The translations under genes and the position numbers were made by a program. Below are positions 9,832 to 38,203 of a DNA stretch of 64,000 bases, in pieces (the stretch's first letter is position 1; the number at the start of each line of letters is the position of its first letter). The DNA is taken from contig NZ_VFNC01000002.1 in the NCBI RefSeq assembly GCF_006715395.1, positions 620,001-684,000 on the forward strand. The letters run 5' to 3'. The notes under the pieces were generated by a model, which saw nothing but the letters and a program-made list of their open reading frames with translations, ran no database searches and was not told the DNA's origin. The DNA is from Streptomyces sp. SLBN-31 (lineage in GTDB: Bacteria; Actinomycetota; Actinomycetes; Streptomycetales; Streptomycetaceae).

Positions 9832-10287
9832 ATGACCAAAGCCATCAAACTGCTGACCGCCCTTCCCCCGCCGCAACGCCAGCGCCTGATGACACTCGCC
9901 AGGGAGGTGTCCTTCCCGGAGGACGCCCGGATCTTCGAGGCCGGGGGCCGGGCCGACCGGTTCTGGGTCATCCGCTCCGGCGCGGTCTCCCTCGACCAGC
10001 GGGTCAACTCCCTGCAGCGGGTGACCGTGGCGAGCCTGGGCTCGGGCGATCTGCTCGGCTGGTCATGGCTGTTCCCACCGCACGAGTGGGACTTCGGCGC
10101 CGAGGCGTTCAGCCCCGTACGAGCCTACGAGTTCGACGCGGCGGAGGTGCTGCGGCTGTGCGAGGAGGATCCGCAGCTGGGGATGGTACTGGTACGCAGC
10201 GTGGCCGAGATCCTCGCGCACCGGCTGGAGATGACGCGCGGCAAGCTCATGGAGCAGTACACCACCCAGCGGCGCCGCGCCCTGTAG
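9832..10287 (+). CDS. Cyclic nucleotide-binding (Crp-type sensor) domain protein
   Basis: A 151-residue protein consisting almost only of a cupin-like cNMP-binding domain: RIFEAGGRADRFWVIRSGAV, then LGSGDLLGWSWLFPP, then a C-terminal helix (LVRSVAEILAHRLEMTRGKL). Unlike Crp/Fnr regulators it ends before a DNA-binding helix-turn-helix. The phosphate-binding cassette does not show the classical cAMP-contacting RA pair, so the ligand may not be cAMP. Stand-alone members usually act by protein contact. It ends 4 bases from the stop of the convergent MFS gene. Confidence 0.85.
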   Translation: MTKAIKLLTALPPPQRQRLMTLAREVSFPEDARIFEAGGRADRFWVIRSGAVSLDQRVNSLQRVTVASLGSGDLLGWSWLFPPHEWDFGAEAFSPVRAYEFDAAEVLRLCEEDPQLGMVLVRSVAEILAHRLEMTRGKLMEQYTTQRRRAL

Positions 10288-10291
10288 TGCC

Positions 10292-11590
10292 TCAGACGCG
10301 GTAGCGGCGCAGGGCCGGCACCGCGGCGGCCAGGGCCAGCATCACCGCGACGACCAGCAGGCCCCCGCCCGCCACGGCCGCGCGCGGGCCGAAGGCCGAG
10401 CCCGCCGTGCCGTGCAGGACGTCGGCGAGGCGCGGGCCGCCCGCCACGACGACCGTGAAGACGCCCTGCATACGGCCCCGCATCTCGTCGGTGGCGGCGG
10501 ACAGCAGGATCGCGCCGCGGAAGACCATCGAGACCATGTCGGCGACGCCGGCCACGGCGAGGCAGGCGGCCGCGACCCACAGGTTGCCGCTCAGTCCGAA
10601 GCCGGTGATCGCCAGGCCCCAGGCGACGACCGCGCCGATGACCATCACGCCGTGCCGGCGGGCCCGGGAGAAGGTGCCGGAGAACAGCCCGCCGAGCACG
10701 GCGCCGATGGGGATCGAAGCGAACAGCAGACCGAGGGCGAGGCCTTCACCGTAGGAGCCGTAGGTCTCCGCGGCCAGCTGCGGGAACAGGGCGCGGGGCA
10801 TGCCGAAGACCATCGCGATGATGTCGGCGAGGAAGGACAGCAGCAGCACCTTGTGCAGGGAGATGTAGCGGAAGCCCTCCGCGATCTCGCGCACGCCGGC
10901 CCGCCGGGTCGCGGTGCCCGCGAGCGGCGGCAGCGACGGCAGCCGGTAGACCGCCCACACGGTGACGCACAGCGCGAGCGCGTCGATCAGGTACAGCTCC
11001 GGCAGGCCGATGACGGGGATCAGGGCGCCGGCGAGCAGGGGGCCGACGACCTGTCCGGTCTGCATGACGGTCGAGCCGAGCGCGTTGGCGGCGGGCAGCT
11101 GGCCCTCGGGCACGAGACGGGCGATGGAGGCGTTGCGGGCGGGGGCGTTGAGTCCCCAGAAGGCCTGCTGAATCGCCAGCAGCACCATCAGCACGGCCAC
11201 CGACTCCAGCCCGGTGACGGCCTGGAGCCAGAACAGCAGTGAGGTCACCGCGATGCCGGTGTTGGTGATCAGCAGCAGCTTGCGGCGGTCCATGCTGTCG
11301 GCGACGGCGCCGCCCCACAGCGCGAACACGATCAGCGGGAGCAGGCCTGCGAGGCTGGCGGCGCCGACCCACGCCGAGGAACCGGTGATGTCGTAGATCT
11401 GCTTCGGTACGGCGACCGCGGTGAGCTGGCTGCCGACCGCGGTGACGATGGTGGAGGACCAGAGCCGGCGGTAGGCCGGGATGCGCAGCGGGCGGGTGTC
11501 CATGGCCCAGCGGCGCCAGCCGCGCCGGGGCGGGTCGACCGCGACGGGGTCCGGACTCTGCGGTTCGGTGCTGCTCTCGCTGGTGTCCAC
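10292..11590 (-). CDS. MFS transporter (drug/siderophore exporter type)
   Basis: A 432-residue major facilitator protein with about 12 hydrophobic segments. It shows the loop 2-3 motif region GGAVADSMDRRKLLL, equivalent to the conserved GxLaDrxGrkp signature. The order and the NALGSTVMQTGQVVGPLLAG segment (motif C-like, antiporter group) fit the EntS/MefA-like proton-driven exporters. A basic, Pro-rich cytoplasmic N-terminus precedes helix 1. The GTG start at 11590 has AGGAAG at good spacing. The upstream region carries two CTATCG copies 19 bases apart (11616-11640), a possible operator. Substrate unknown. Confidence 0.88.
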   Translation of the reverse strand: MDTSESSTEPQSPDPVAVDPPRRGWRRWAMDTRPLRIPAYRRLWSSTIVTAVGSQLTAVAVPKQIYDITGSSAWVGAASLAGLLPLIVFALWGGAVADSMDRRKLLLITNTGIAVTSLLFWLQAVTGLESVAVLMVLLAIQQAFWGLNAPARNASIARLVPEGQLPAANALGSTVMQTGQVVGPLLAGALIPVIGLPELYLIDALALCVTVWAVYRLPSLPPLAGTATRRAGVREIAEGFRYISLHKVLLLSFLADIIAMVFGMPRALFPQLAAETYGSYGEGLALGLLFASIPIGAVLGGLFSGTFSRARRHGVMVIGAVVAWGLAITGFGLSGNLWVAAACLAVAGVADMVSMVFRGAILLSAATDEMRGRMQGVFTVVVAGGPRLADVLHGTAGSAFGPRAAVAGGGLLVVAVMLALAAAVPALRRYRV

Positions 11591-28223: not shown

Positions 28224-28970
28224 ATGCGGGCAGACGTACGGCAAGTCGCCGACGGCATTCATCTGGTGCACGGCAGCGACACCAACTGGGTGATCCTCAC
28301 CGAGGGCGACGAACTCACCCTGGTCGACACCGGCTATCTCGGTGACCGGCAGCAGGTCCTCGACTCCCTCATCGCGGTCGGCGGCGCACCGGAGGCGGTC
28401 GCGGCGGTGCTCGTCACCCACGCCCACAACGACCACCTGGGCTCGGCCGAGTACCTGCGCTGCACCTACGGCACGCCCGTGTACCTGCACGAGGCCGAAG
28501 TGCCGCACGCCCGCCGGGAGTTCCTGCAACAGGTGACCGTCGGCCAGATCGCCCGCAACGGCTGGCGGCCCGGTGTGCTGCCCTGGGCGCTGCACGCCAT
28601 GCGCTCCGGCGGCCTGACCGACGTCCCGGTCGCCGCGCCCGAGCCGTTCCCCGCACCGGGCGCCCTGGACCTGCCCGGCCGGCCGGTCCCGGTGCACACT
28701 CCCGGCCACACCGACGGACACGCGGTCTTCCACCTCCCGCACGCCGGCGTCGTGATCGCCGGTGACGCGATCGCCACCGCCCACCCCACCTCGCGCCTGA
28801 GCGGACCCCACCTGCTGCCCGACATGTTCCAGCACGAGCGCGCACGGGCCGTCGCCTCCCTCGATGTCATCGCCGCGCTGGAGGGTGATCTGTTGTTGCC
28901 CGGTCACGGTCCGGAGCACCGCGGTCCGATCCGTGAAGCGGCATTTCAGGCCAAGGAGCGCGCGCTCTAA
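28224..28970 (+). CDS. MBL-fold metallo-hydrolase
   Basis: A 248-residue metallo-beta-lactamase-fold hydrolase. The zinc motif THAHNDHLG gives HxHxDH with H66, H68, D70 and H71. Further ligand segments are HTPGHTDGH, VIAGDAI and LLPGHGPEH near the C-terminus. No signal peptide is seen, so it is cytoplasmic. Family members include glyoxalase II, lactonases and RNases; the pattern here fits a general small-molecule hydrolase and the substrate is unknown. It starts at ATG 28224 with GGGG close upstream. DUF4032 follows 40 bases later. Confidence 0.9.
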   Translation: MRADVRQVADGIHLVHGSDTNWVILTEGDELTLVDTGYLGDRQQVLDSLIAVGGAPEAVAAVLVTHAHNDHLGSAEYLRCTYGTPVYLHEAEVPHARREFLQQVTVGQIARNGWRPGVLPWALHAMRSGGLTDVPVAAPEPFPAPGALDLPGRPVPVHTPGHTDGHAVFHLPHAGVVIAGDAIATAHPTSRLSGPHLLPDMFQHERARAVASLDVIAALEGDLLLPGHGPEHRGPIREAAFQAKERAL

Positions 28971-29010
28971 GGTGAGGTGACGATCACGGCGAGGCGAGGA
29001 CACGCGACCC

Positions 29011-30246
29011 ATGGCACTGCAGATCAGCGCGACGAACCCGGAGCACCCCGCGCTCCTGCTGGAACTGCCGTGGCACCTGCCGCTGGAGGAGTGGCCGGAG
29101 AGGTACCTGGTCCCGCTGCCGCGCGGCATCTCCCGGCACGTGGTGCGCTACGCCCATGCCGGGGACGAGGTGATCGCGGTCAAGGAACTCGCCGAGCGGC
29201 CCGCCCTGCGGGAGTACGAGCTGCTGCGCGACCTGGACCGGCTCGGCATCCCCTCGGTCGACCCGCTGGCCGTGGTCACCGGCCGCACCGACGCCGAAGG
29301 CACCGCGCTGGAGCCGGTGCTGATCACCCGTCACCTGCGCGGCTCGCAGCCGTACCGGTCGATGTTCGAGACGACCATGCGCCCGGCCACCATGCACCGC
29401 CTCATGGACGCCCTCGCCGTCCTGCTGGTCCGCCTGCACCTGGCGGGCTTCGCCTGGGGCGACTGCTCGCTGTCCAACACCCTCTTCAGGCGCGACGCGG
29501 GTGCCTACGCCGCCTACCTCGTCGACGCCGAGACCGGCGACCTGCACCCCCAGCTCAGCACCGGGCAGCGCGAGTACGACCTCGACCTCGCCCGCGTGAA
29601 CATCAGCGGCGAGCTGCTGGACCTGGAGGCGTCCGGGGCGCTGCACCCCTCGGTGGATCCGATCGAGTTCGGCATGGAGATCTGCGCCCGCTACCGTGGC
29701 CTGTGGGAGGAGCTGACCCGCACCTCCGTGTACCCGGCGGGCAAGTACCACTACATCGAGCGCCGGATCCGCCGTCTGAACGACCTCGGCTTCGACGTGG
29801 CCGAGATGCAGATCGAGCACTCCTCGAACGGCGACACGGTCACGTTCGTGCCCAAGGTCGTCGACGCCGGCCACCACCAGCGCCAACTGCTGCGCCTGAC
29901 CGGCCTGGACGCCGAGGAGAACCAGGCCCGGCGGCTGCTCAACGACCTGGAGAGCTGGATGGCCACCCAGGACGACTACGCCCCGGGCGACCCCCTCGCC
30001 GCCCGCCCCGAGGTGCTGGCCCACCGCTGGGTGCGGGACGTCTTCCGGCCCACCGTGCGCGCCGTGCCGCTGGAACTGCGCGGCTCCATGGACGCGGCGG
30101 AGATCTACCACGAGCTGCTGGAGCACCGCTGGTACCTGTCCGAGCGGGCGCAGCAGGACATCGGGCTGGACACGGCGGTCGAGGACTACATCACGAACAT
30201 CCTGCCCAAGGCGCGGGAGACGCTGCAGCCCACGACCGCCGAGTGA
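29011..30246 (+). CDS. DUF4032 domain protein with kinase-like N-terminal half
   Basis: A 411-residue cytoplasmic protein. The N-terminal half has a kinase-like pattern: VIAVKELAERPALREYELL (a VAxK-like lysine and possible C-helix glutamate), then HLAGFAWGDCSLSNTLF, which resembles the catalytic loop of LPS-kinase/RIO-like proteins, and YLVDAETGD (a DxE-type metal site). The C-terminal half is the DUF4032 domain, conserved across actinobacteria. Substrate and role are unknown. The start has GAGGCGAGGA upstream. It is convergent with the universal stress protein gene, 2 bases apart. Confidence 0.85.
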   Translation: MALQISATNPEHPALLLELPWHLPLEEWPERYLVPLPRGISRHVVRYAHAGDEVIAVKELAERPALREYELLRDLDRLGIPSVDPLAVVTGRTDAEGTALEPVLITRHLRGSQPYRSMFETTMRPATMHRLMDALAVLLVRLHLAGFAWGDCSLSNTLFRRDAGAYAAYLVDAETGDLHPQLSTGQREYDLDLARVNISGELLDLEASGALHPSVDPIEFGMEICARYRGLWEELTRTSVYPAGKYHYIERRIRRLNDLGFDVAEMQIEHSSNGDTVTFVPKVVDAGHHQRQLLRLTGLDAEENQARRLLNDLESWMATQDDYAPGDPLAARPEVLAHRWVRDVFRPTVRAVPLELRGSMDAAEIYHELLEHRWYLSERAQQDIGLDTAVEDYITNILPKARETLQPTTAE

Positions 30247-30248
30247 CC

Positions 30249-31121
30249 TCAGGAGTGCGGTACGACGGCCACCGGGCACTCCGCGTGGTGCAGCACCCCG
30301 TGCGCCACCGAGCCGATCCGGGCGCCCACGGCCGTACGGTGCGCCCGGCGCCCGACGACCATCAGCTGGGCGCGCGCCGCCACCGACAGCAGCACCTGCC
30401 CGGCGCTGCCCATCTCCACGTGCTCCACCACCGGGACGTCAGGGAAGCGCTCCCGCCACGGCCGCAGGGCTGCCGCCAGTGCCTTCTTCTCGAACGGCTC
30501 CAGTCCCCCGGCCTGGTCGAGGATCTGCATCGAACCGGGGCTGTAGGCGAACACCGGCGGTAGCGTCCACGCGCGCACCGCTCGCACGCCGGCCCCGCGG
30601 GCGGACGCCGTCTCGAAGGCGAACCGCAGCGTGTCGGCGCTGTCCTGCGGATCACCCTGCTGGCCGACGACGATCTCCCGCCCCGCCGCCTCGGCCGACG
30701 GCTGGTCACCTGCGCGCACCAGCACTACCGGACGTCTGGCCTCGGCGATCACCTGCTGACCCACGGACCCGATCAGGAAGCCGACGACCGGTCCGTGCCC
30801 GCGTGAGCCGAGGACCAGCATCTCGGCCTCGGCCCCGGCGCCGACCAGGGTGTCGACGGTGTCCCCCTCCAGCACGTCGGTGATCACCTCCAGACCCTTG
30901 TGCCGCGCCTCGACGGCACGGGCCGCGTCGGCGACCGCGTTCTTCACCCATCCGGCCTGGGTCTCCCGGTCGCCGGCGTCGATCGCCTCGTACGGCTGGA
31001 ACCGCCAGGCCTGCACCACGCGGAGGGCGAGGTTCCGGCGGACGGCCTCCCGGGCCGCCCACTCCAGCGCGGCGAGGCTCTCCTCGGTTCCGTCGACCCC
31101 GGCGGTGATCGGACGCGTCAT
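30249..31121 (-). CDS. Universal stress protein, two tandem UspA domains
   Basis: A 290-residue protein with two UspA domains of ~145 residues. Domain 1 starts ITAGVDGTEESLAALEWA and ends with the ATP-binding motif LGSRGHGPVVGFLIGSVGQQ. Domain 2 starts EIVVGQQGDPQDSADTLRFA and ends VVGRRAHRTAVGARIGSVAH. The G-2x-G-9x-G(S/T) nucleotide-binding pattern is recognisable in both. Tandem Usp proteins respond to starvation, hypoxia or redox stress in actinobacteria. ATG 31121 is chosen because GGGAGG lies seven bases before it. It is divergent from the VOC gene. Confidence 0.92.
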   Translation of the reverse strand: MTRPITAGVDGTEESLAALEWAAREAVRRNLALRVVQAWRFQPYEAIDAGDRETQAGWVKNAVADAARAVEARHKGLEVITDVLEGDTVDTLVGAGAEAEMLVLGSRGHGPVVGFLIGSVGQQVIAEARRPVVLVRAGDQPSAEAAGREIVVGQQGDPQDSADTLRFAFETASARGAGVRAVRAWTLPPVFAYSPGSMQILDQAGGLEPFEKKALAAALRPWRERFPDVPVVEHVEMGSAGQVLLSVAARAQLMVVGRRAHRTAVGARIGSVAHGVLHHAECPVAVVPHS

Positions 31122-31170
31122 GCGGTTGCCTCCCAGTGTCGTGCTCACGTCGGTCGGACCCAGTCTTCAC

Positions 31171-31176
31171 TACACT
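31171..31176 (+). promoter_or_regulatory. -10 box giving a leaderless VOC mRNA
   Basis: TACACT lies 6 bases before the GTG of the VOC gene at 31183. No Shine-Dalgarno sequence precedes that GTG, so transcription probably starts at the start codon. A -35 box is not obvious at 17-18 bp. Confidence 0.5.
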
Positions 31177-31182
31177 GTGCCC

Positions 31183-31539
31183 GTGATCTTGGAATGGGAA
31201 CAGGTGATCGTGGACGCCGCCGACCCCGTGGCTCTGGGCCGCTGGTGGGCCGAGGCGCTGGGCTGGGTCGTGGTCGACGAGTCGCCCGACGAGTACGAGA
31301 TCCGGCCCGCGAAGGACCGGCTGCCGGGGCTGCTGTTCGGGCGCTCCACCGACTCGAAGACCGTCAAGAACCGCCTCCACCTCGACTTCCGTCCCGAGGA
31401 CCAGGAGGCCGAGGTGGCCCGGTTGCTGGCGCTGGGCGCGCGGCACGCGGACGTCGGGCAGACGGGCGACGAGCCCTGGGTGGTGCTGGCGGACCCCGAG
31501 GGCAACGAGTTCTGTGTCCTGGGGCCGAGGCGCGGCTGA
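31183..31539 (+). CDS. VOC (glyoxalase/dioxygenase fold) family protein
   Basis: A 118-residue single-domain VOC protein: WEQVIVDAADPVALGRWWAE at the N-terminus, LHLDFRPED in the middle and WVVLADPEGNEFCVL at the end. This is the glyoxalase-like pattern with candidate metal ligands H and E. It belongs to the small actinobacterial 'glyoxalase-like' group without known substrate. GTG 31183 is chosen because the fold starts directly and a -10 box sits at leaderless distance. The frame open further upstream lies within the divergent Usp gene and is a shadow. Confidence 0.85.
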   Translation: MILEWEQVIVDAADPVALGRWWAEALGWVVVDESPDEYEIRPAKDRLPGLLFGRSTDSKTVKNRLHLDFRPEDQEAEVARLLALGARHADVGQTGDEPWVVLADPEGNEFCVLGPRRG

Positions 31540-31673
31540 GCGTCCGCCGTCCGTCTCATGGCGGAGCGAAGCGGGACGATCGAACATACGATGGGCGGAA
31601 GCCGACGCGGTGACCGCCTCTCACGACAGCGCTCATCATGCCGTCGGTCCGATCCACTCGGGGTGGGAGAGGT

Positions 31674-33350
31674 ATGGCACAGGCGTCCGACGCCGCACGG
31701 ACCGTGATCATGACCGTGGACGACGACCCGGGAGTCTCCCGCGCCGTCGCCCGTGATCTGCGGCGCCGCTACGGCGAGTCGTACCGCATCGTGCGCGCCG
31801 AGTCCGGCGAGTCCGCGCTGGACGCGCTGCGCGAGCTGAAGCTGCGCGGTGACCTGGTGGCCGTCATCCTGGCCGACTACCGAATGCCGCAGATGAACGG
31901 CATCGAGTTCCTGGAACAGGCCCTGGACGTGTATCCGGGGGCACGCCGGGTGCTGCTGACCGCCTACGCGGACACGAACGCGGCGATCGACGCGATCAAC
32001 GTCGTCGACCTGGACCACTACCTGCTCAAGCCCTGGGACCCGCCGGAGGAGAAGCTCTACCCGGTGCTGGACGACCTGCTGGAGGCCTGGCGGTGCAGTG
32101 ACTTCCGGCCGGTGCCCAGCACCAAGGTGGTGGGGCACCGCTGGTCGGCGCGCTCGTCGGACGTCCGGGAGTTCCTGGCCCGCAACCAGGTGCCCTACCG
32201 CTGGTACTCCGCCGACGAGCCGGAGGGCAAGCGGCTGCTGGCGGCCGCCGGGGCGGACGGGCAGCGGCTGCCGCTGGTCATCACCCCCGACGGCACGCCG
32301 CTGGTGGAGCCGGAGGCCCCCGAACTCGCCGCCCGGGTCGGGCTCGCGACGACACCGGCCGCCGACTTCTACGACCTCGTCGTCATCGGCGGCGGGCCCG
32401 CCGGGCTCGGTGCCGCGGTGTACGGCGCCTCCGAAGGACTGCGGACCGTTCTCGTGGAGCGGTCGGCGACCGGCGGACAGGCCGGGCAGAGCTCCCGGAT
32501 CGAGAACTACCTCGGCTTCCCCGACGGTGTGTCGGGAGCCCAGCTCACCGAGCGGGCGCGCCGCCAGGCCGCCAAGTTCGGCGCCGAGATCCTCACCGCG
32601 CGCGAGGTGACGGGACTGGAGGTCAACGGGGCCGCCCGCACGGTGCGGTTCTCCGACGGCTCCGCGGTCGCCGCGCACAGCGTCATCCTGGCCACCGGTG
32701 TGTCGTACCGGCAGCTGGCGGCGCCGGGCTGCGACGACCTCACCGGCTGCGGGGTGTTCTACGGCTCGGCCCTGACCGAGGCCGCCTCCTGCCAGGGGCA
32801 GGACGTGTACATCGTCGGCGGCGCCAACTCGGCCGGGCAGGCGGCGATGTACCTGTCCAGGGGCGCCAAGTCGGTGACGCTGCTGGTGCGCGGCCCGGAC
32901 CTGGCGGCGTCGATGTCGTACTACCTGATCCAGCAGATCAACGAGGCGCCGAACATCTCGGTGCGCGCGCGTACCGTCGTCGAGACCGCACACGGAACCG
33001 ACCACCTCGAACAGCTCACCCTGCGCGACGTCGACACCGGCGAGACCGAACTCGTCGACGCGCAGTGGATGTTCGTGTTCATCGGCGCGGCCCCGCTGAC
33101 CGACTGGCTGGACGGCACGGTCCTGCGCGACGAGCACGGGTTCATCCTCGCCGGACCCGACCTCACCCCGGACGGCCGGCCGCCCGCGGAATGGGAACTG
33201 GACCGGCCGCCTTATCACCTGGAGACCAACATTCCCGGCGTGTTCGTGGCGGGCGACGCGCGCGCCGAGTCCGCGAAGCGCGTCGCGTCCGCCGTCGGAG
33301 AGGGAGCCATGGCCGTGATGCTCGTCCACCGGTACCTGGAGCAGTCGTGA
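31674..33350 (+). CDS. Receiver domain fused to a thioredoxin-reductase-like flavoprotein
   Basis: A 558-residue three-part protein. Residues 10-140 are a response-regulator receiver: D16/D17, phospho-acceptor D68 in ILADYRMP, T96 and K119. Residues ~150-225 resemble a cysteine-free glutaredoxin/thioredoxin-like module (REFLARNQVPYRWY, LPLVITPDGTPL). Residues 232-558 are a thioredoxin-reductase-type domain with FAD motif GGGPAG (239-244) and an NADPH-type motif near 382-388. The redox CxxC pair expected between them is replaced by FYGSALTEAASC, so it cannot be a standard disulfide reductase. GGGAGAGG precedes the ATG. The next gene, a histidine kinase, overlaps by GTGA. A phosphorylation-controlled flavoenzyme is likely. 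Confidence 0.92.
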   Translation: MAQASDAARTVIMTVDDDPGVSRAVARDLRRRYGESYRIVRAESGESALDALRELKLRGDLVAVILADYRMPQMNGIEFLEQALDVYPGARRVLLTAYADTNAAIDAINVVDLDHYLLKPWDPPEEKLYPVLDDLLEAWRCSDFRPVPSTKVVGHRWSARSSDVREFLARNQVPYRWYSADEPEGKRLLAAAGADGQRLPLVITPDGTPLVEPEAPELAARVGLATTPAADFYDLVVIGGGPAGLGAAVYGASEGLRTVLVERSATGGQAGQSSRIENYLGFPDGVSGAQLTERARRQAAKFGAEILTAREVTGLEVNGAARTVRFSDGSAVAAHSVILATGVSYRQLAAPGCDDLTGCGVFYGSALTEAASCQGQDVYIVGGANSAGQAAMYLSRGAKSVTLLVRGPDLAASMSYYLIQQINEAPNISVRARTVVETAHGTDHLEQLTLRDVDTGETELVDAQWMFVFIGAAPLTDWLDGTVLRDEHGFILAGPDLTPDGRPPAEWELDRPPYHLETNIPGVFVAGDARAESAKRVASAVGEGAMAVMLVHRYLEQS

Positions 33351-34804
33351 GCGGGCGGGCGCTGCCCTGCAACCCGCAGGAGATCGGGTCGCTGTTCCTG
33401 TTCGAGAAACTGTCCGCCGAGCAGCTCGGACAGCTGTGCAGCGCCGGCCGGGTGGAGCAGTTCGAGCCCGGGCCCGTCTACACCGAGGGTGACCCCGCCA
33501 CCTGCTTCTACGTGATGGTCGAGGGCACCGTCGTGCTGTCCCGGCGGGTCGGCGGGGACGACGTGGAGGTCACCCGGACCTCCCAGCGGGGCGCCTACGC
33601 GGGTGCGATGCAGGCCTACCTCGGGGACCGGGTGCGGCAGGTCTACCACAACTCCATGCGGGTGACGGAGCCCTCGCGGTTCTTCGTGCTGCCCGCCGAG
33701 AAGTTCGCGGCCTTCATGGAAGAGAACTTCCCGATGGCGGTCCATCTGCTGGAGGGCCTGTTCTGGGGCTCGAAGAACACCCAGCGGGCGGTCGGCCAGC
33801 GCGAACGGCTGCTGGCGCTCGGCTCGTTGTCGGCCGGTCTCACGCACGAGCTCAACAACCCCGCGGCCGCGGCGGTCCGGGCCACGGCCACGCTGCGCGA
33901 GCGGGTGGGCAAGATGCGGCACAAGCTCGCCGTGATCTCCCAGAGTTCGTACACGCCCGAGGACATGGCGAACCTGATCGACATCCAGGAGCGCACCGCC
34001 GAACGCGTCGCCAAGGCGCCGGTGCTCAGTCCGCTGGAGGCCTCGGACCGGGAGGACGCCCTCGCCGACTGGCTCGACGACCACGGCATCCAGGAGGGCT
34101 GGCGCATCGCCCCCACCTTCGTGCAGGCCGGCCTGGACGTGGACTGGCTGGATCAGATCGCCGCGGCCGTCAACGATGAGATCCTGCCGAACGCGATCGG
34201 CTGGCTCAACTACACCGTCGAGACCGAGCTGTTGATGGACGAGATCAACGACTCCACCGCCCGCATCTCGCACCTCGTCGACGCGGCCAAGCAGTACTCG
34301 CAGCTGGACCGGGCGCCCTTCCAGGTCGCGGACGTCCACGAACTCCTCGACAGCACACTGCTGATGCTCTCCGGGAAGACCGGCGAGCGGATCAAGGTCG
34401 TCAAGGACTACGACCGGACGCTGCCGAGGATCCCGGCGTACCCGGCGGAGCTCAACCAGGTGTGGACCAACCTGATCGACAACGCCGTCTCCGCCATGAA
34501 CAGCACCGGCGGGGACGGCACGTTGACCGTGCGGACGGCCCTGGAGAACGACCGGCTGCTGGTGGAGTTCAAGGACACCGGGCCGGGCGTGCCGCGGGAG
34601 ATCCGCGACCGTATCTTCGATCCGTTCTTCACCACCAAGCCGGTCGGCGAGGGCACCGGCCTGGGGCTGGACATCTCCTGGCGGATCGTCGTGAACAAAC
34701 ACCACGGCACGCTCCAGGTGGAGTCCGAACCCGGTGACACCCGGTTCCAGGTCCTGCTTCCGTTGACGGCCCCGGCCGACGAGACACCCGAGGAGAGCGC
34801 ATGA
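33347..34804 (+). CDS. Soluble histidine kinase with cyclic-nucleotide-binding-type sensor domain
   Basis: A 485-residue kinase without transmembrane segments. Residues ~15-135 form a cNMP-binding-type beta-roll (EFEPGPVYTEGDPATCFYVM, then a C-terminal helix). HisKA has the unusual motif GLTHELNNPAAA with H167, and a long helical insertion (residues ~180-300) follows before the dimer/catalytic part. The ATPase carries NLIDNAVSAM, DTGPGVP and GEGTGLGLDIS. The HELNNP form is typical of kinases near CheY- or NtrB-like systems. It is coupled to the receiver-flavoprotein (GTGA overlap), its probable phosphorylation partner, and to the zinc-finger gene (ATGA overlap). Confidence 0.92.
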   Translation: MSGRALPCNPQEIGSLFLFEKLSAEQLGQLCSAGRVEQFEPGPVYTEGDPATCFYVMVEGTVVLSRRVGGDDVEVTRTSQRGAYAGAMQAYLGDRVRQVYHNSMRVTEPSRFFVLPAEKFAAFMEENFPMAVHLLEGLFWGSKNTQRAVGQRERLLALGSLSAGLTHELNNPAAAAVRATATLRERVGKMRHKLAVISQSSYTPEDMANLIDIQERTAERVAKAPVLSPLEASDREDALADWLDDHGIQEGWRIAPTFVQAGLDVDWLDQIAAAVNDEILPNAIGWLNYTVETELLMDEINDSTARISHLVDAAKQYSQLDRAPFQVADVHELLDSTLLMLSGKTGERIKVVKDYDRTLPRIPAYPAELNQVWTNLIDNAVSAMNSTGGDGTLTVRTALENDRLLVEFKDTGPGVPREIRDRIFDPFFTTKPVGEGTGLGLDISWRIVVNKHHGTLQVESEPGDTRFQVLLPLTAPADETPEESA

Positions 34805-35154
34805 GCAGCGGCGACGGTATCGATCCCGGCGTTCCGCCGAGCGGCACCGGCTGCGTGGAGTGCGAGGAGGCGGGCGGCTGGTGGTTCCATCTGCGGCGCT
34901 GCGCGCAGTGCGGGCACATCGGCTGCTGCGACGACTCCCCGGCCAAGCACGCCACCGCGCACTTCCGGACCACCGGACACCCGGTGATCCGCAGTTTCGA
35001 GCCGGGCGAGGAGTGGTTCTGGGACTTCGAGAGCTCCCAGCTGTACGAGTCGGGGCCCGAGCTGGCGCCGCCGTCGAGCCATCCGGCGGAGCAGCCCGCG
35101 CCGGGGCCGGCGGGACGGGTGCCGGAGGACTGGGCGCGGACCTTGAGGGGATGA
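34801..35154 (+). CDS. UBP-type zinc finger protein
   Basis: A 117-residue protein with a ZnF-UBP domain at ~15-75: C18, C21, C34, C37, C42, H50, H54 and H60 in the usual spacing (CVECEEAGGWWFHLRRCAQC). The C-terminal third is Pro/Glu-rich and probably disordered. In eukaryotes this domain binds free ubiquitin C-termini; actinobacteria lack ubiquitin, so it must recognise something else, perhaps a C-terminal peptide. The ATG overlaps the kinase stop by 4 bases, so it is made together with the kinase and flavoprotein and probably acts in the same pathway. Confidence 0.88.
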   Translation: MSSGDGIDPGVPPSGTGCVECEEAGGWWFHLRRCAQCGHIGCCDDSPAKHATAHFRTTGHPVIRSFEPGEEWFWDFESSQLYESGPELAPPSSHPAEQPAPGPAGRVPEDWARTLRG

Positions 35155-35248
35155 CCTCTCGCGGGGCGGCGCGTACGGGCTGTCCGTGGCCCGTCGCGCC
35201 CCTCGGGCCGGCATCCCCGCTGTCAGTGGTGGGTGCCAGGATGGGCGT

Positions 35249-38203
35249 GTGACTGAAACCGGCTTCGCCACTCCGCTGATCGGGCGCGACGAGGATCTCG
35301 CCCGGCTCGACGACGTGCTCGCGCGTGCCCGGCGGGGCGAGGCGGGAGCCGTGCTCGTGGCCGGGGACGCCGGAGTGGGCAAGACCCGGCTGCTGGACGA
35401 GGTCGCCCGGCGGGCCGCGGCTGCCGGCACGACCGTGCTGACCGGGCACTGCGTCGACCTCGGTGACGTGGGCCTGCCGTACCTGCCGTTCACCGAGATC
35501 CTCGGGATGCTCGCCGCCGACGAGCTGTTCGCGCCGGTGCTGTCGGCACATCCCGTGGTGGACCGGCTGCTCGGCTCGGGGTCGGAGGCGGTGCGGGACG
35601 CGGGCGGGCGGCTGCGGCTGTTCGAGGGCATGGCCCAGCTGCTGGCCGACCTCGCCGATCACGCGCCCGTGCTGCTGGTCCTGGAGGATCTGCACTGGGC
35701 CGACCAGTCCTCCCGCGACCTGCTGCGCTTCCTGCTCAGCCGGGGTGTCCTGCAGCGCCCCGCGGGCGGCGCCCCCGCCCACCGGCTCGCCGTCCTCGCC
35801 TCCTACCGCTCGGACGACCTGCACCGCCGTCATCCGCTGCGTCCCCTCCTGGCCGAGCTGGTACGGCTGCCGGCCGTGGAGCGGCTCGAACTGCGCCCCC
35901 TGGCTGACGCCGAGGTCACCCGTCTGGTGCGGGCGCTGCGGACCAGCCCGCTGCCGGAGGCCACGGTCCGCCGCATCGTCGAGCGGGCCGAGGGCAACGC
36001 CTTCTACGCGGAGGAACTGGTCGCCGCCACCGGTTCGGAGCCCGGCGGGGTGCCGAGCGGCCTGGCCGACGTGCTGCTCATCCGTGTCGAGCAGCTGTCC
36101 GACACCGCCCAGCAGGTGCTGCGCACGGCCGCCGTCGCCGGCCGCCGCGTCGAGCACGATCTGCTGCGGGACGCCGTGGGGCTTCCCGAGGACGAGCTGG
36201 AGTCGGCGCTGCGCGAGGCCGCCGGACACCAGCTCCTCGTCCCCGGGGACCGGGACACCTACGCCTTCCGGCACGCGCTGGCGCGGGAGGCCGTCTACGC
36301 GGATCTGCTGCCGGGCGAACGGGCGCGGCTGCACGGCGCGTTCGCCCGCCTGCTGGCGGGCCGTGGCCGCTCGGGAGAGACCGCGGCCGAGCGCGCCCAC
36401 CACTACCGCGAGAGCCACGACCTGGCCGAGGCGCTCGCCGCCTCGCTGGAGGCCGCCGACCACGCCCAGCGGGTGGGCGCGCCCGCCGAGGAGCTGCGGC
36501 ATCTGGAAACCGCGCTCGACCTGTGGGCGTCGGTGGACGCGGCGGCCCGCCCCTCCGGCGAGGGCGTCGACCGGGTGACGCTCACCCTGCGGGCCTCGGC
36601 GGCGGCCGCGCACGCCGGTGAGACGCACCGGGCCGTGTCCCTCACCCGGGCCGCCCTCGCCGGAATCGGCGCGGACGCGGACGCCGAGCTCGCCGCCCGG
36701 GTCCGGTACACGCTGGCCGGCAACCTGATGAGCGTCGACAGTCTGACGGCCGCCTTCGCCTACAGCAGCGAGGCACTGTCGCTGATCCCCGCCGAGCCGC
36801 CGAGCCGCACCTGGGTGTGGGCCGCCGCCACACATGTCATCGCCGCACGCCAGATCGGCGAGAACGAGGTCGCGCTACGGGTGGCGCGGCACGCGCTGGG
36901 CGTCGCCGAGCAGCTGCGGGTGAAGGACGCACAGGCCGACCTGCTCGTCTCCCTGGCCGTCCTGGGCCCCGGCGGCCGCGGCGGGGCAGCGGGGCGCGCG
37001 CAGCTGGCGGAGGCCCGTGAACTGGCCCGCGGCGCGGGCAACGCGCCCGTGGAGATGCGGGCCCTGTTCAACCTCGCCATCGGCAGCTACGAGTCCGGTG
37101 ACCTCGAAGGGTCCTTGCGGTGGGTGACCGAGGGCCTGGAGCGCGCCCGCCGGGCCGGGCTGCTGTCCTCGCCGTATCCGCTGGAGATGCGCTACCTGCA
37201 CTTGGTGGTGCTGTACACGCTGGGCCACTGGGACGAGTGCCTGCGGGCAGCGGCCGCCGACTCGGCGGTGCTCCCCTCGGCGGGCGGGTACGCGATGGCC
37301 CCGGCCTTGTACGTGGCGCTGGCGCGCGGTGATCTGGAGGCCGCCGAACGGGCGCGGGCCCTGCTGGAGGGGCCGTTCGACTGGATGGCCACGCTGGTCG
37401 CCGGCATCGTGCTGACCGAGGCGGCCGTGCTGCGCGGCGATGCGCGGGCGGCCGTGGAGCGGGTGCGGGCCACGGTCGAGGCGCTGACCGACGAGACGGG
37501 CGCGCGCCCCGACGTGAGCGTCCGGCTGGCGGCGCTCGCGCTGGCGGCGGTGGCCGACGCCGCCGTGGAGCTGCGGTCGGCCGGCGGCGAGGCCCACCAG
37601 TGGCGGGAGACCGCCGACGAGCTGGTCGCGCTGGCCCGCGAGGTGGCCCGGCGCGACGAGGACGAGCCGCCGCAGGGCCCCGAGGGCCGGGCCTGGCTGG
37701 CCCGCGCGGAGGCGGAGTGGACGCGGGCCGTCACGGGGCCGGACGCGACGGCCTGGGAGAAGGCGGTGGCCGCCTTCGACTATGGGGACGTGTACGAGCG
37801 GTTGCGCTGCCAAGTGCGTTATGCGGAAGCCCTGTTGGCGTCGGATCAGCGGCAGGAGGCGGCGGCGCAGGCCGGTGCGGCGCGGGCGGTGGCCGAGCGG
37901 CTCGGGACGGCGCCCCTGCTGGAGCGTCTGGACGGTCTGATACGCCGCGGCCGGCTCGCCGCCTCCCCGGCGGACGGGGAGCGCAGTTCGCCGCTCACCG
38001 CCCGCGAGCAGGACGTGCTGCGGCTCCTGGCCCGCGGCCGCAGCAACCGGCAGATCGGCGAGGAGCTGTTCATCACCGGCAAGACGGCGAGCGTGCACGT
38101 CTCCAACATCCTGGCCAAGCTGGGCGCGGCGAGCCGTACCGAGGCGGTGGCGATCGCCTACCGGCAGGGTCTCGTCGCGCCCGAGCACCAGGCGTCCGGC
38201 TGA
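35249..38203 (+). CDS. LAL-type (large LuxR) ATP-dependent regulator
   Basis: A 984-residue regulator of the LAL/MalT-like class. The N-terminal AAA ATPase has Walker A GDAGVGKT (39-46) and Walker B LLVLEDLHWAD. A ~600-residue middle part is alpha-helical, with TPR-like helical repeats (AERAHHYRESHDLAEALAAS and similar). The C-terminal LuxR HTH reads LTAREQDVLRLLARGRSNRQ, then GKTASVHVSNILAKLGAASR. Known LALs activate antibiotic or sugar gene clusters when bound to ATP and an inducer. GTG 35249 begins directly at the ATPase; no strong ribosome site is seen, so the mRNA may be leaderless. It is convergent with the SGNH gene, 10 bases apart. Confidence 0.92.
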   Translation: MTETGFATPLIGRDEDLARLDDVLARARRGEAGAVLVAGDAGVGKTRLLDEVARRAAAAGTTVLTGHCVDLGDVGLPYLPFTEILGMLAADELFAPVLSAHPVVDRLLGSGSEAVRDAGGRLRLFEGMAQLLADLADHAPVLLVLEDLHWADQSSRDLLRFLLSRGVLQRPAGGAPAHRLAVLASYRSDDLHRRHPLRPLLAELVRLPAVERLELRPLADAEVTRLVRALRTSPLPEATVRRIVERAEGNAFYAEELVAATGSEPGGVPSGLADVLLIRVEQLSDTAQQVLRTAAVAGRRVEHDLLRDAVGLPEDELESALREAAGHQLLVPGDRDTYAFRHALAREAVYADLLPGERARLHGAFARLLAGRGRSGETAAERAHHYRESHDLAEALAASLEAADHAQRVGAPAEELRHLETALDLWASVDAAARPSGEGVDRVTLTLRASAAAAHAGETHRAVSLTRAALAGIGADADAELAARVRYTLAGNLMSVDSLTAAFAYSSEALSLIPAEPPSRTWVWAAATHVIAARQIGENEVALRVARHALGVAEQLRVKDAQADLLVSLAVLGPGGRGGAAGRAQLAEARELARGAGNAPVEMRALFNLAIGSYESGDLEGSLRWVTEGLERARRAGLLSSPYPLEMRYLHLVVLYTLGHWDECLRAAAADSAVLPSAGGYAMAPALYVALARGDLEAAERARALLEGPFDWMATLVAGIVLTEAAVLRGDARAAVERVRATVEALTDETGARPDVSVRLAALALAAVADAAVELRSAGGEAHQWRETADELVALAREVARRDEDEPPQGPEGRAWLARAEAEWTRAVTGPDATAWEKAVAAFDYGDVYERLRCQVRYAEALLASDQRQEAAAQAGAARAVAERLGTAPLLERLDGLIRRGRLAASPADGERSSPLTAREQDVLRLLARGRSNRQIGEELFITGKTASVHVSNILAKLGAASRTEAVAIAYRQGLVAPEHQASG

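Follow-up and report, generated by a model that had tools for sequence, protein, structure and literature searches.

Within a 64,000-nucleotide stretch of the Streptomyces sp. SLBN-31 genome (hereafter, the window), we characterized a module of three overlapping plus-strand genes, encoding a receiver domain fused to a cysteine-less flavoprotein, a soluble histidine kinase, and a UBP-type zinc-finger protein. Judged from its sequence, the module seems, with moderate confidence, to be a two-component system that acts through a redox enzyme as its output, in place of a DNA-binding domain. The window (G000:C2:620001-684000) belongs to a genome of 9.47 Mb in 3 contigs, and among database proteins that carry an organism name the best matches come from Streptomyces. 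Gene 1 (31674-33350, 558 aa) encodes the receiver, a glutaredoxin-like (Grx-like) segment, and a Cys-less FAD/NAD(P)H flavoprotein with the fold of thioredoxin reductase (TrxR). Gene 2 (33347-34804, 485 aa, GTG start) encodes the kinase, whose sensor domain has the cyclic-nucleotide-binding (CNB) fold, and gene 3 (34801-35154, 117 aa) encodes the zinc finger. The genes overlap by GTGA (33347-33350) and ATGA (34801-34804). These overlaps had been described in an earlier note on this DNA, together with a complete receiver (D68, K119) fused to a TrxR-like domain devoid of CxxC, a soluble histidine kinase with an HELNNP motif, and a UBP-type zinc finger. All of this held up: the coordinates confirm the overlaps, Pfam and an alignment to PDB 7jyp the fusion, intact sequence boxes and low hydropathy the soluble kinase, and a PF02148 match the zinc finger. 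For gene 1, the list of open reading frames (ORFs) contains an earlier ATG at 31638; we favored the Met at 31674, as most of 120 listed homologues have the resulting length of 558 aa. No membrane-like segment was found in any of the three proteins (highest 19-residue hydropathy 1.36, 0.89, and 0.03), and none of them has a Pfam match to a DNA-binding domain.

The receiver occupies residues 12-124 of the flavoprotein (31707-32045; Pfam PF00072 Response_reg, E = 1.4e-14) and has all the residues of the phosphorylation site: D16, D17, D68 (codon 31875-31877), T96 at the Thr/Ser position, and K119. Among 52 aligned receivers (match E < 1e-20), 51 or 52 retain each of these residues, the exceptions being gaps. 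A Cys-free Grx-like segment follows at about residues 152-228 (32127-32357), and the remainder of the chain, residues 229-558 (32358-33347), is the TrxR-fold flavoprotein domain, matched by Pfam PF07992 Pyr_redox_2 at 233-544. At the place of the thioredoxin reductase CxxC, alignments to 7jyp and to a set of more distant relatives (L164-L168, described below) put FYGSALTEAASC (residues 362-373; 32757-32792), so that the two active-site cysteines of 7jyp face G364 and T368. The flavoprotein has four cysteines in all, at 141, 353, 359, and 373, with none between 141 and 353. To generalize this, we aligned 80 rows chosen by a match of E < 1e-60 to the window's TrxR domain, a threshold that leaves the CxxC-bearing L164-L169 outside; the 80 include the window protein itself, are 78 distinct sequences by their core piece, and are in some cases truncated. 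Positions 364-368 are free of Cys throughout, 64 of the 80 have C373, and there is no other conserved Cys column; the FAD and nucleotide motifs are strongly conserved across the aligned flavoproteins. A substitute pair at another site, which the earlier note had named as a ground for refutation, was ruled out: CxxC occurs in two of the 80 rows (L128 and L175), near residue 430 and off the active site.

These data bear on whether the flavoprotein might nonetheless be a thioredoxin reductase, acting through cysteines located elsewhere or passing electrons to thioredoxin by some other route. Public names suggest as much, for example "cyclic nucleotide-binding domain-containing thioredoxin-disulfide reductase", and on one Rhodococcus plasmid a trxA gene directly precedes the zinc finger. 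Yet active-site cysteines are missing from all 80 rows, C373 has no second conserved Cys to pair with, and the protein scores 218.7 bits against the thioredoxin reductase equivalog TIGR01292, below its cut-off of 343.45. The relatives that do carry both pairs form a separate and more distant set at 35-39% identity. We therefore regard a thioredoxin reductase function as very unlikely, and the public names, "thioredoxin reductase (NADPH)" among them, look wrong as far as cysteine activity is concerned.

The relatives in question (L164-L168, from five actinobacterial genomes) are Grx-TrxR fusions whose Grx part carries CPDC, CGDC, or CSDC and whose TrxR part carries CATC, a motif also present in L169, a TrxR. 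The five fusions share the Grx-like plus TrxR arrangement of the window enzyme but keep both CxxC pairs and have no signalling domain, and their fetched flanks gave no match to a receiver, a CNB domain, a kinase, or zf-UBP. Their sequences are those expected of a complete flavin-to-disulfide relay in one chain, and among Cys-bearing relatives they are the nearest to the window enzyme, which has SARS and GSAL at the corresponding places. The former, S158-A159-R160-S161 (32145-32156), lies opposite CPDC/CGDC/CSDC in the alignment. Pfam Glutaredoxin (PF00462) is found in L164, L166, and L168, the three of these five proteins that were scanned, and at the same place in a Nostoc relative. The alignment with L164-L168, the PF00462 matches in relatives, and the replacement of CPDC by SARS together lead us to consider the segment probably a genuine, though inactive, glutaredoxin relative. 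In the window protein itself, this segment, described earlier as a Grx/Trx-like module, has neither a Cys nor a Pfam match. Since the next relatives out carry both redox pairs and have no kinase nearby, the two pairs were apparently lost together; the direction of change appears to be loss rather than gain, on a tree that is not rooted with the L164-L168 rows.

Among known enzymes, the low-Mr thioredoxin reductase 7jyp aligns with window residues 223-549, indicating by sequence the same two-domain FAD/NAD(P)H fold; the window protein differs in lacking CxxC and in its additional receiver and Grx-like segment. The TrxR-fold ferredoxin-NADP reductases that were matched (5xhu, 3ab1, and 3lzw), which have no redox disulfide, share the fold but are not fused to signalling domains. 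The TrxR-like part of AhpF matches residues 229-549 (TIGR03140), and the catalytic cysteines are again absent from the window protein; AhpF is described in PMC8945050 as having an N-terminal extension and catalytic Cys in both parts.

The kinase combines a CNB-fold sensor domain at about residues 10-140 (33374-33766; Pfam PF00027 cNMP_binding at 44-127, E = 1.2e-9, 38.4 bits against a cut-off of 27.5), the predicted phosphoacceptor H167 within HELNNP (33845-33847), and a HATPase_c catalytic domain at residues 367-474 (34445-34768; PF02518, E = 2.6e-24). Its H, N, G1, F, and G2 boxes are all intact. The earlier assignment of a CNB-type domain stands as regards the PF00027 match, but the domain is not a canonical cyclic-nucleotide receptor: in the phosphate-binding cassette, the Glu is replaced by A87 and the Arg by Y100. 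Kinases of the same module in L028 and L016 keep GE...R. The intact-cassette pattern, a simple one that variants could escape, occurs in 5 of 64 kinase rows, all in three distant genomes of the phylum (G097, G045, and G118). Inspected by eye, ten CNB domains fused to flavoproteins keep the GE and lack the Arg at its usual place, and four kinases of other phyla lack the cassette Arg as well. Among solved structures, DNR (PDB 2z69), a CRP/FNR-type transcription factor with a haem/NO role, has a CNB domain that matches residues 11-138 of the window kinase (E = 7.7e-8); H101 of the window kinase is not common to the other module kinases aligned.

Burroughs, Iyer and Aravind (2011) reportedly predicted that bacterial ZF-UBP domains are part of a "novel cyclic nucleotide-dependent redox signaling system". 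Compared with that prediction as reported, the likeness lies in the linkage of bacterial zf-UBP genes to redox flavoproteins and CNB domains; the differences are the receiver as input, a kinase acting in trans, and a kinase CNB domain without the canonical ligand residues. The general kind of system was thus probably predicted before, and the module, with both disulfides gone, would be a variant of it. One may ask whether the kinase senses cAMP or cGMP in the classical manner, as that prediction would have it. The cNMP_binding match in the kinase and the intact GE...R cassettes of the three distant genomes are in line with this, but we consider it improbable given A87 and Y100 in the window kinase, the small number of rows with the cassette pattern, and the missing Arg in the kinases of other phyla. 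Because the canonical Glu and Arg are absent, we doubt that the window kinase senses cyclic nucleotides, and its ligand is probably something other than cAMP or cGMP. The earlier note had also held that the fusion occurs in databases under descriptive names and has no defined function. Indeed, no paper on the module, and no experiment on a system of this kind, was found in the open literature as judged by titles or the start of abstracts, but the reported 2011 prediction qualifies that statement.

Comparative genomics supports part of the earlier interpretation. A survey of co-occurrence, put forward earlier as a check, found the genes conserved together. Orthologues of the flavoprotein (67-100% identity) are present in 30 of 61 genomes of the genus, the copy in G127 being broken in two. 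In all 30, a kinase match starts within 2 kb of the flavoprotein, and a zf-UBP domain lies within 3.4 kb in 26. Of the four others, G119 has a contig that stops within the kinase, G023 has its zinc finger divided between two reading frames, and G171 and G145 have none. Twelve more distant copies (43-48% identity) have a zf-UBP within 2 kb in eight cases and no such kinase within 40 kb. The arrangement is conserved across genomes beyond what chance would produce.

We next considered whether the receiver and the kinase go together beyond the genus. In 30 loci from the phylum, those with an intact receiver (L140-L152) have an adjacent kinase in 13 of 13 cases, and those with other forms of the flavoprotein (L153-L163) in 0 of 11, a count that takes the best match per genome (G013, G028, and G042 hold several copies). 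The inputs of the latter group are two CNB domains, seven diverged receivers, and two N-termini to which the query assigned nothing. Across 31 hand-picked loci from four phyla, a spacing of 432-513 nt separates the flavoprotein from the start of the kinase core, and pairwise distances correlate between flavoprotein and kinase (Spearman 0.91) and between receiver and kinase (0.84), both values being without a null model. In a maximum-likelihood tree, 62 enzymes grouped by input, with one change for the receiver (support 75/49), one each for the diverged receiver and for enzymes with no input domain (both starred), and two for CNB; near-identical Streptomyces sequences, truncated rows, and L162 are omitted from this tree, and the "diverged receiver" label of L156 comes from alignment alone. 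Since the tree groups enzymes by input, the input domain was exchanged only a few times. The pairing kept over four phyla is good evidence, of a comparative kind, that the kinase and the receiver work together.

The flavoprotein and the zinc finger also co-occur widely. The Cys-less flavoprotein is found in 24 of 119 genomes of the phylum, in 37 copies (rows of at least 45% identity, weaker rows being excluded). A zf-UBP gene is present in 20 of these 24 genomes and in 7 of the 95 others (Fisher 3e-13, uncorrected for kinship). Five genomes with the Cys-bearing fusion sit among the 95, and zf-UBP was found in none of them; counting these five (G007, G052, G073, G095, and G117, with loci L164-L168) as flavoprotein genomes gives 20 of 29 versus 7 of 90. 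In a scan of named genomes that started from the zinc finger, all three parts are present in 34 of the best 80 of 589 loci, with one more cut by a contig end; in a further 4, the flavoprotein is present but no kinase matches. On plasmids, 31 of the 32 records listed for both proteins have the flavoprotein and the zinc finger within 6 kb of each other, among them records of Rhizobium, Burkholderia, Paraburkholderia, and Gemmatirosa; the sample, in which close strains are numerous, comprises 82 of the 137 flavoprotein records and 76 of the 87 zinc-finger records. Outside the phylum, Pfam domain assignments place a CNB-kinase directly after a receiver-flavoprotein in Deinococcus aetherius, Caballeronia, Gloeothece, and Nostoc sp. 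C052. Two further features were seen at such loci: a second kinase of the same type upstream of the receiver-flavoprotein (L187, L188, and L191; Deinococcus, Caballeronia, and Paraburkholderia records), and a "low temperature requirement protein A" gene nearby (L170, L187, and L190; two Nostoc and one Deinococcus).

Several observations weigh against the two-component reading with a zinc-finger partner. Five paralogues of the flavoprotein (54-55% identity) all adjoin a zf-UBP, and in all five the nearest such kinase is about 24 kb away. Since the tree groups enzymes by input, the contrast of 13 of 13 with 0 of 11 is mainly that of one clade with the rest and does not represent independent events; moreover, the receiver group is weakly supported (75/49). 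One locus counted among the other forms, L155, passes a looser receiver cut-off and keeps D16, D17, D68, and K119, with T96 changed, and no kinase is seen there in a stretch that takes in about 0.9 kb of downstream sequence. The pair of Nostoc edaphicum is interrupted by a transposase and one further gene, and its kinase, 2.6 kb off, has a receiver instead of a CNB domain. As for the zinc finger, it is loosely tied to the flavoprotein across the phylum, lying within 6 kb of 7 of the 37 copies (many contigs are short). In 41 of the best 80 of 589 zinc-finger loci there is no full flavoprotein within 4 kb, and no zf-UBP was seen in the 5-kb flanks of the flavoprotein-kinase pair in Deinococcus, Caballeronia, Paraburkholderia, or cyanobacteria.

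Taking these observations together, we propose the following mechanism. The soluble kinase, with its CNB-fold sensor, would autophosphorylate on H167, and the phosphate would pass to D68 of the receiver fused to the flavoprotein; on the comparative evidence, such a phosphotransfer is very likely. Since both CxxC pairs are absent, electrons would leave NAD(P)H by way of FAD and reach an acceptor distinct from any disulfide relay of the enzyme's own, much as in Cys-less ferredoxin/flavin reductases of the TrxR fold. The phosphorylated receiver would in turn gate the activity of the flavoenzyme or the access of its partner. We consider it likely that phosphorylation controls the flavoenzyme in this way, and we infer with good reason that control is direct, because in a sister clade the position of the receiver is taken by a CNB domain.

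It is also conceivable that the signal flows in reverse, with the flavoprotein serving as a redox sensor whose FAD or NAD(P)H state sets the uptake or loss of phosphate by the receiver, so that it would drain phosphate from the kinase in a redox-gated way. A sensor might well lose both disulfides while retaining its FAD and nucleotide motifs, and the lack of a Pfam DNA-binding domain in all three proteins fits this as well. Nevertheless, the enzyme of the CNB clade has an input domain and no kinase seen nearby, an arrangement that speaks for an N-terminal domain acting on the enzyme, and we judge the reversed flow unlikely. Returning to a kinase that acts on the enzyme, a broader and more speculative scenario, which we consider possible but doubtful, is that a Grx-TrxR relay was rebuilt into a signal-gated flavoenzyme. 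Disulfides would have been lost as inputs were gained, one line would have acquired the receiver and the kinase, the cyclic-nucleotide site of the kinase CNB domain would have given way to another signal, and the zinc finger would be a redox target or a carrier of the target.

The zinc finger of gene 3 spans residues 18-79 (34852-35037; Pfam PF02148, 50.1 bits against a cut-off of 22.7), and C18, C21, C34, C37, C42, C43, H50, H54, and H60 are invariant in ten aligned sequences. Its nearest solved relative, the similar bacterial zf-UBP of PDB 2ida (E = 4.8e-26), is entered as "Hypothetical protein", a name that gives no function. In HDAC6 and USP49, the Arg of a GRY motif holds the carboxylate of the ubiquitin tail. 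Here, D44-D45-S46 replaces this G-R-Y, and D-x-S is found in all ten aligned bacterial proteins, x being D, S, T, Q, or E. It would be possible in principle for the domain to read the tail of a ubiquitin-like protein, such as Pup or another small modifier, and thereby to involve the module in protein tagging: the domain clearly matches the UBP family, and its eukaryotic PDB relatives include readers of ubiquitin tails. Given the substitution of D-x-S for GRY in all ten, we hold such tail reading to be extremely unlikely. The protein ends in a tail, PGPAGRVPEDWARTLRG (35101-35151), and a similar tail is present in some members (L082, L117, and L061).

The partners of the zinc finger are suggestive of its role. 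Because it adjoins receiver-type, CNB-type, and input-less flavoproteins alike, the flavoprotein appears to be its main partner. A link to the kinase also exists, as evident from a single ORF in G097 (within L181 5774-10310, minus strand) in which CNB, kinase, and zf-UBP are joined and which immediately follows a receiver-flavoprotein. The notion of the zinc finger as part of a kinase-receiver module therefore draws support from this one fusion but is weakened by its occurrence beside CNB-type and input-less enzymes. We tentatively propose that the zinc finger is an adaptor, mainly to the flavoprotein, that would recruit or present a target protein and would not read ubiquitin.

Other contexts of the domain were also recorded. 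L181 contains a second zf-UBP upstream of the receiver-flavoprotein, along with another ORF that presumably resembles a metallophosphatase, and a similar ORF is found in L182 at 9886-10716. A Rhodococcus plasmid (L174 560-5927) encodes a J-domain gene, cbpM, clpB, and trxA, followed by zf-UBP and a CNB-flavoprotein, neighbors that hint at protein quality control. In mycobacterial loci (L085 7524-7970, minus strand, and similar ones), the same type of zf-UBP occurs without the flavoprotein, beside an ORF that we take to be a START/SRPBCC-fold protein; a cluster of minus-strand ORFs overlapping the place of the L085 ORF is seen in 18 of 41 flavoprotein-free loci, antisense frames included. Short remnants of the flavoprotein or the kinase stand beside zf-UBP in two Streptomyces loci (L078 7791-7985 and L079 7780-8001), as a partial loss of the module might leave behind. 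The SLBN-31 genome itself has two more zf-UBP domains (G000:C2:374852-375043 and G000:C1:694551-694703), and no such flavoprotein was found in their fetched flanks.

Beyond the three genes, no neighbor was widely common among the loci compared, some of whose ORFs were called by a simple rule on GC3, with wrong frames among them. In the window, 28224-31539 encodes a metallo-beta-lactamase-fold protein, a DUF4032 protein, and a universal stress protein (minus strand), with a glyoxalase-like domain at 31201-31521 within ORF 30850-31539; downstream, at 35186-38203, lies an AAA/LuxR-type regulator of 1005 aa. Genes for lactamase-fold, DUF4032, and universal stress proteins are also near the module in some other Streptomyces. 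In 4 of 17 actinobacterial loci outside Streptomyces (L192 8556-9641, L091, L092, and L117), a gene for S-(hydroxymethyl)mycothiol dehydrogenase, a name taken from a Tsukamurella record, or a homologue of it is located near the module. Imperfect inverted repeats were noted at 35106-35218. No regulatory RNA or tRNA was detected within the window, and a promoter and terminator scan, uninformative for a GC-rich genome, gave nothing. PADLOC reported no anti-phage defense match for the three proteins, and a PHROG scan of the zinc finger alone gave no match. Phage records contain 17 matches to gene 1, each below 60% identity; the best (38.9% identity over 99% of the query; MT838110.1, 4243-5826) is in an unannotated 14-kb "Bacteriophage sp." from human feces, which may be a stray bacterial contig.

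If our inference holds, a sensor kinase is coupled straight to a flavin enzyme in at least four bacterial phyla, and since the kinase would act directly on that enzyme, the redox response would need no gene expression. Were the more doubtful scenario of a rebuilt relay also true, the module would represent a post-translational redox switch of wide occurrence that depends on neither thioredoxin nor transcription. The CNB, receiver, diverged-receiver, and input-less enzymes, together with the distant Cys-bearing ones, form a natural series from disulfide relay to regulated switch. Sequence comparison further suggests that the label "thioredoxin-disulfide reductase" is wrong for the Cys-less flavoprotein family, and some bacterial UBP zinc fingers, kin of the ubiquitin readers, gain a testable partner.

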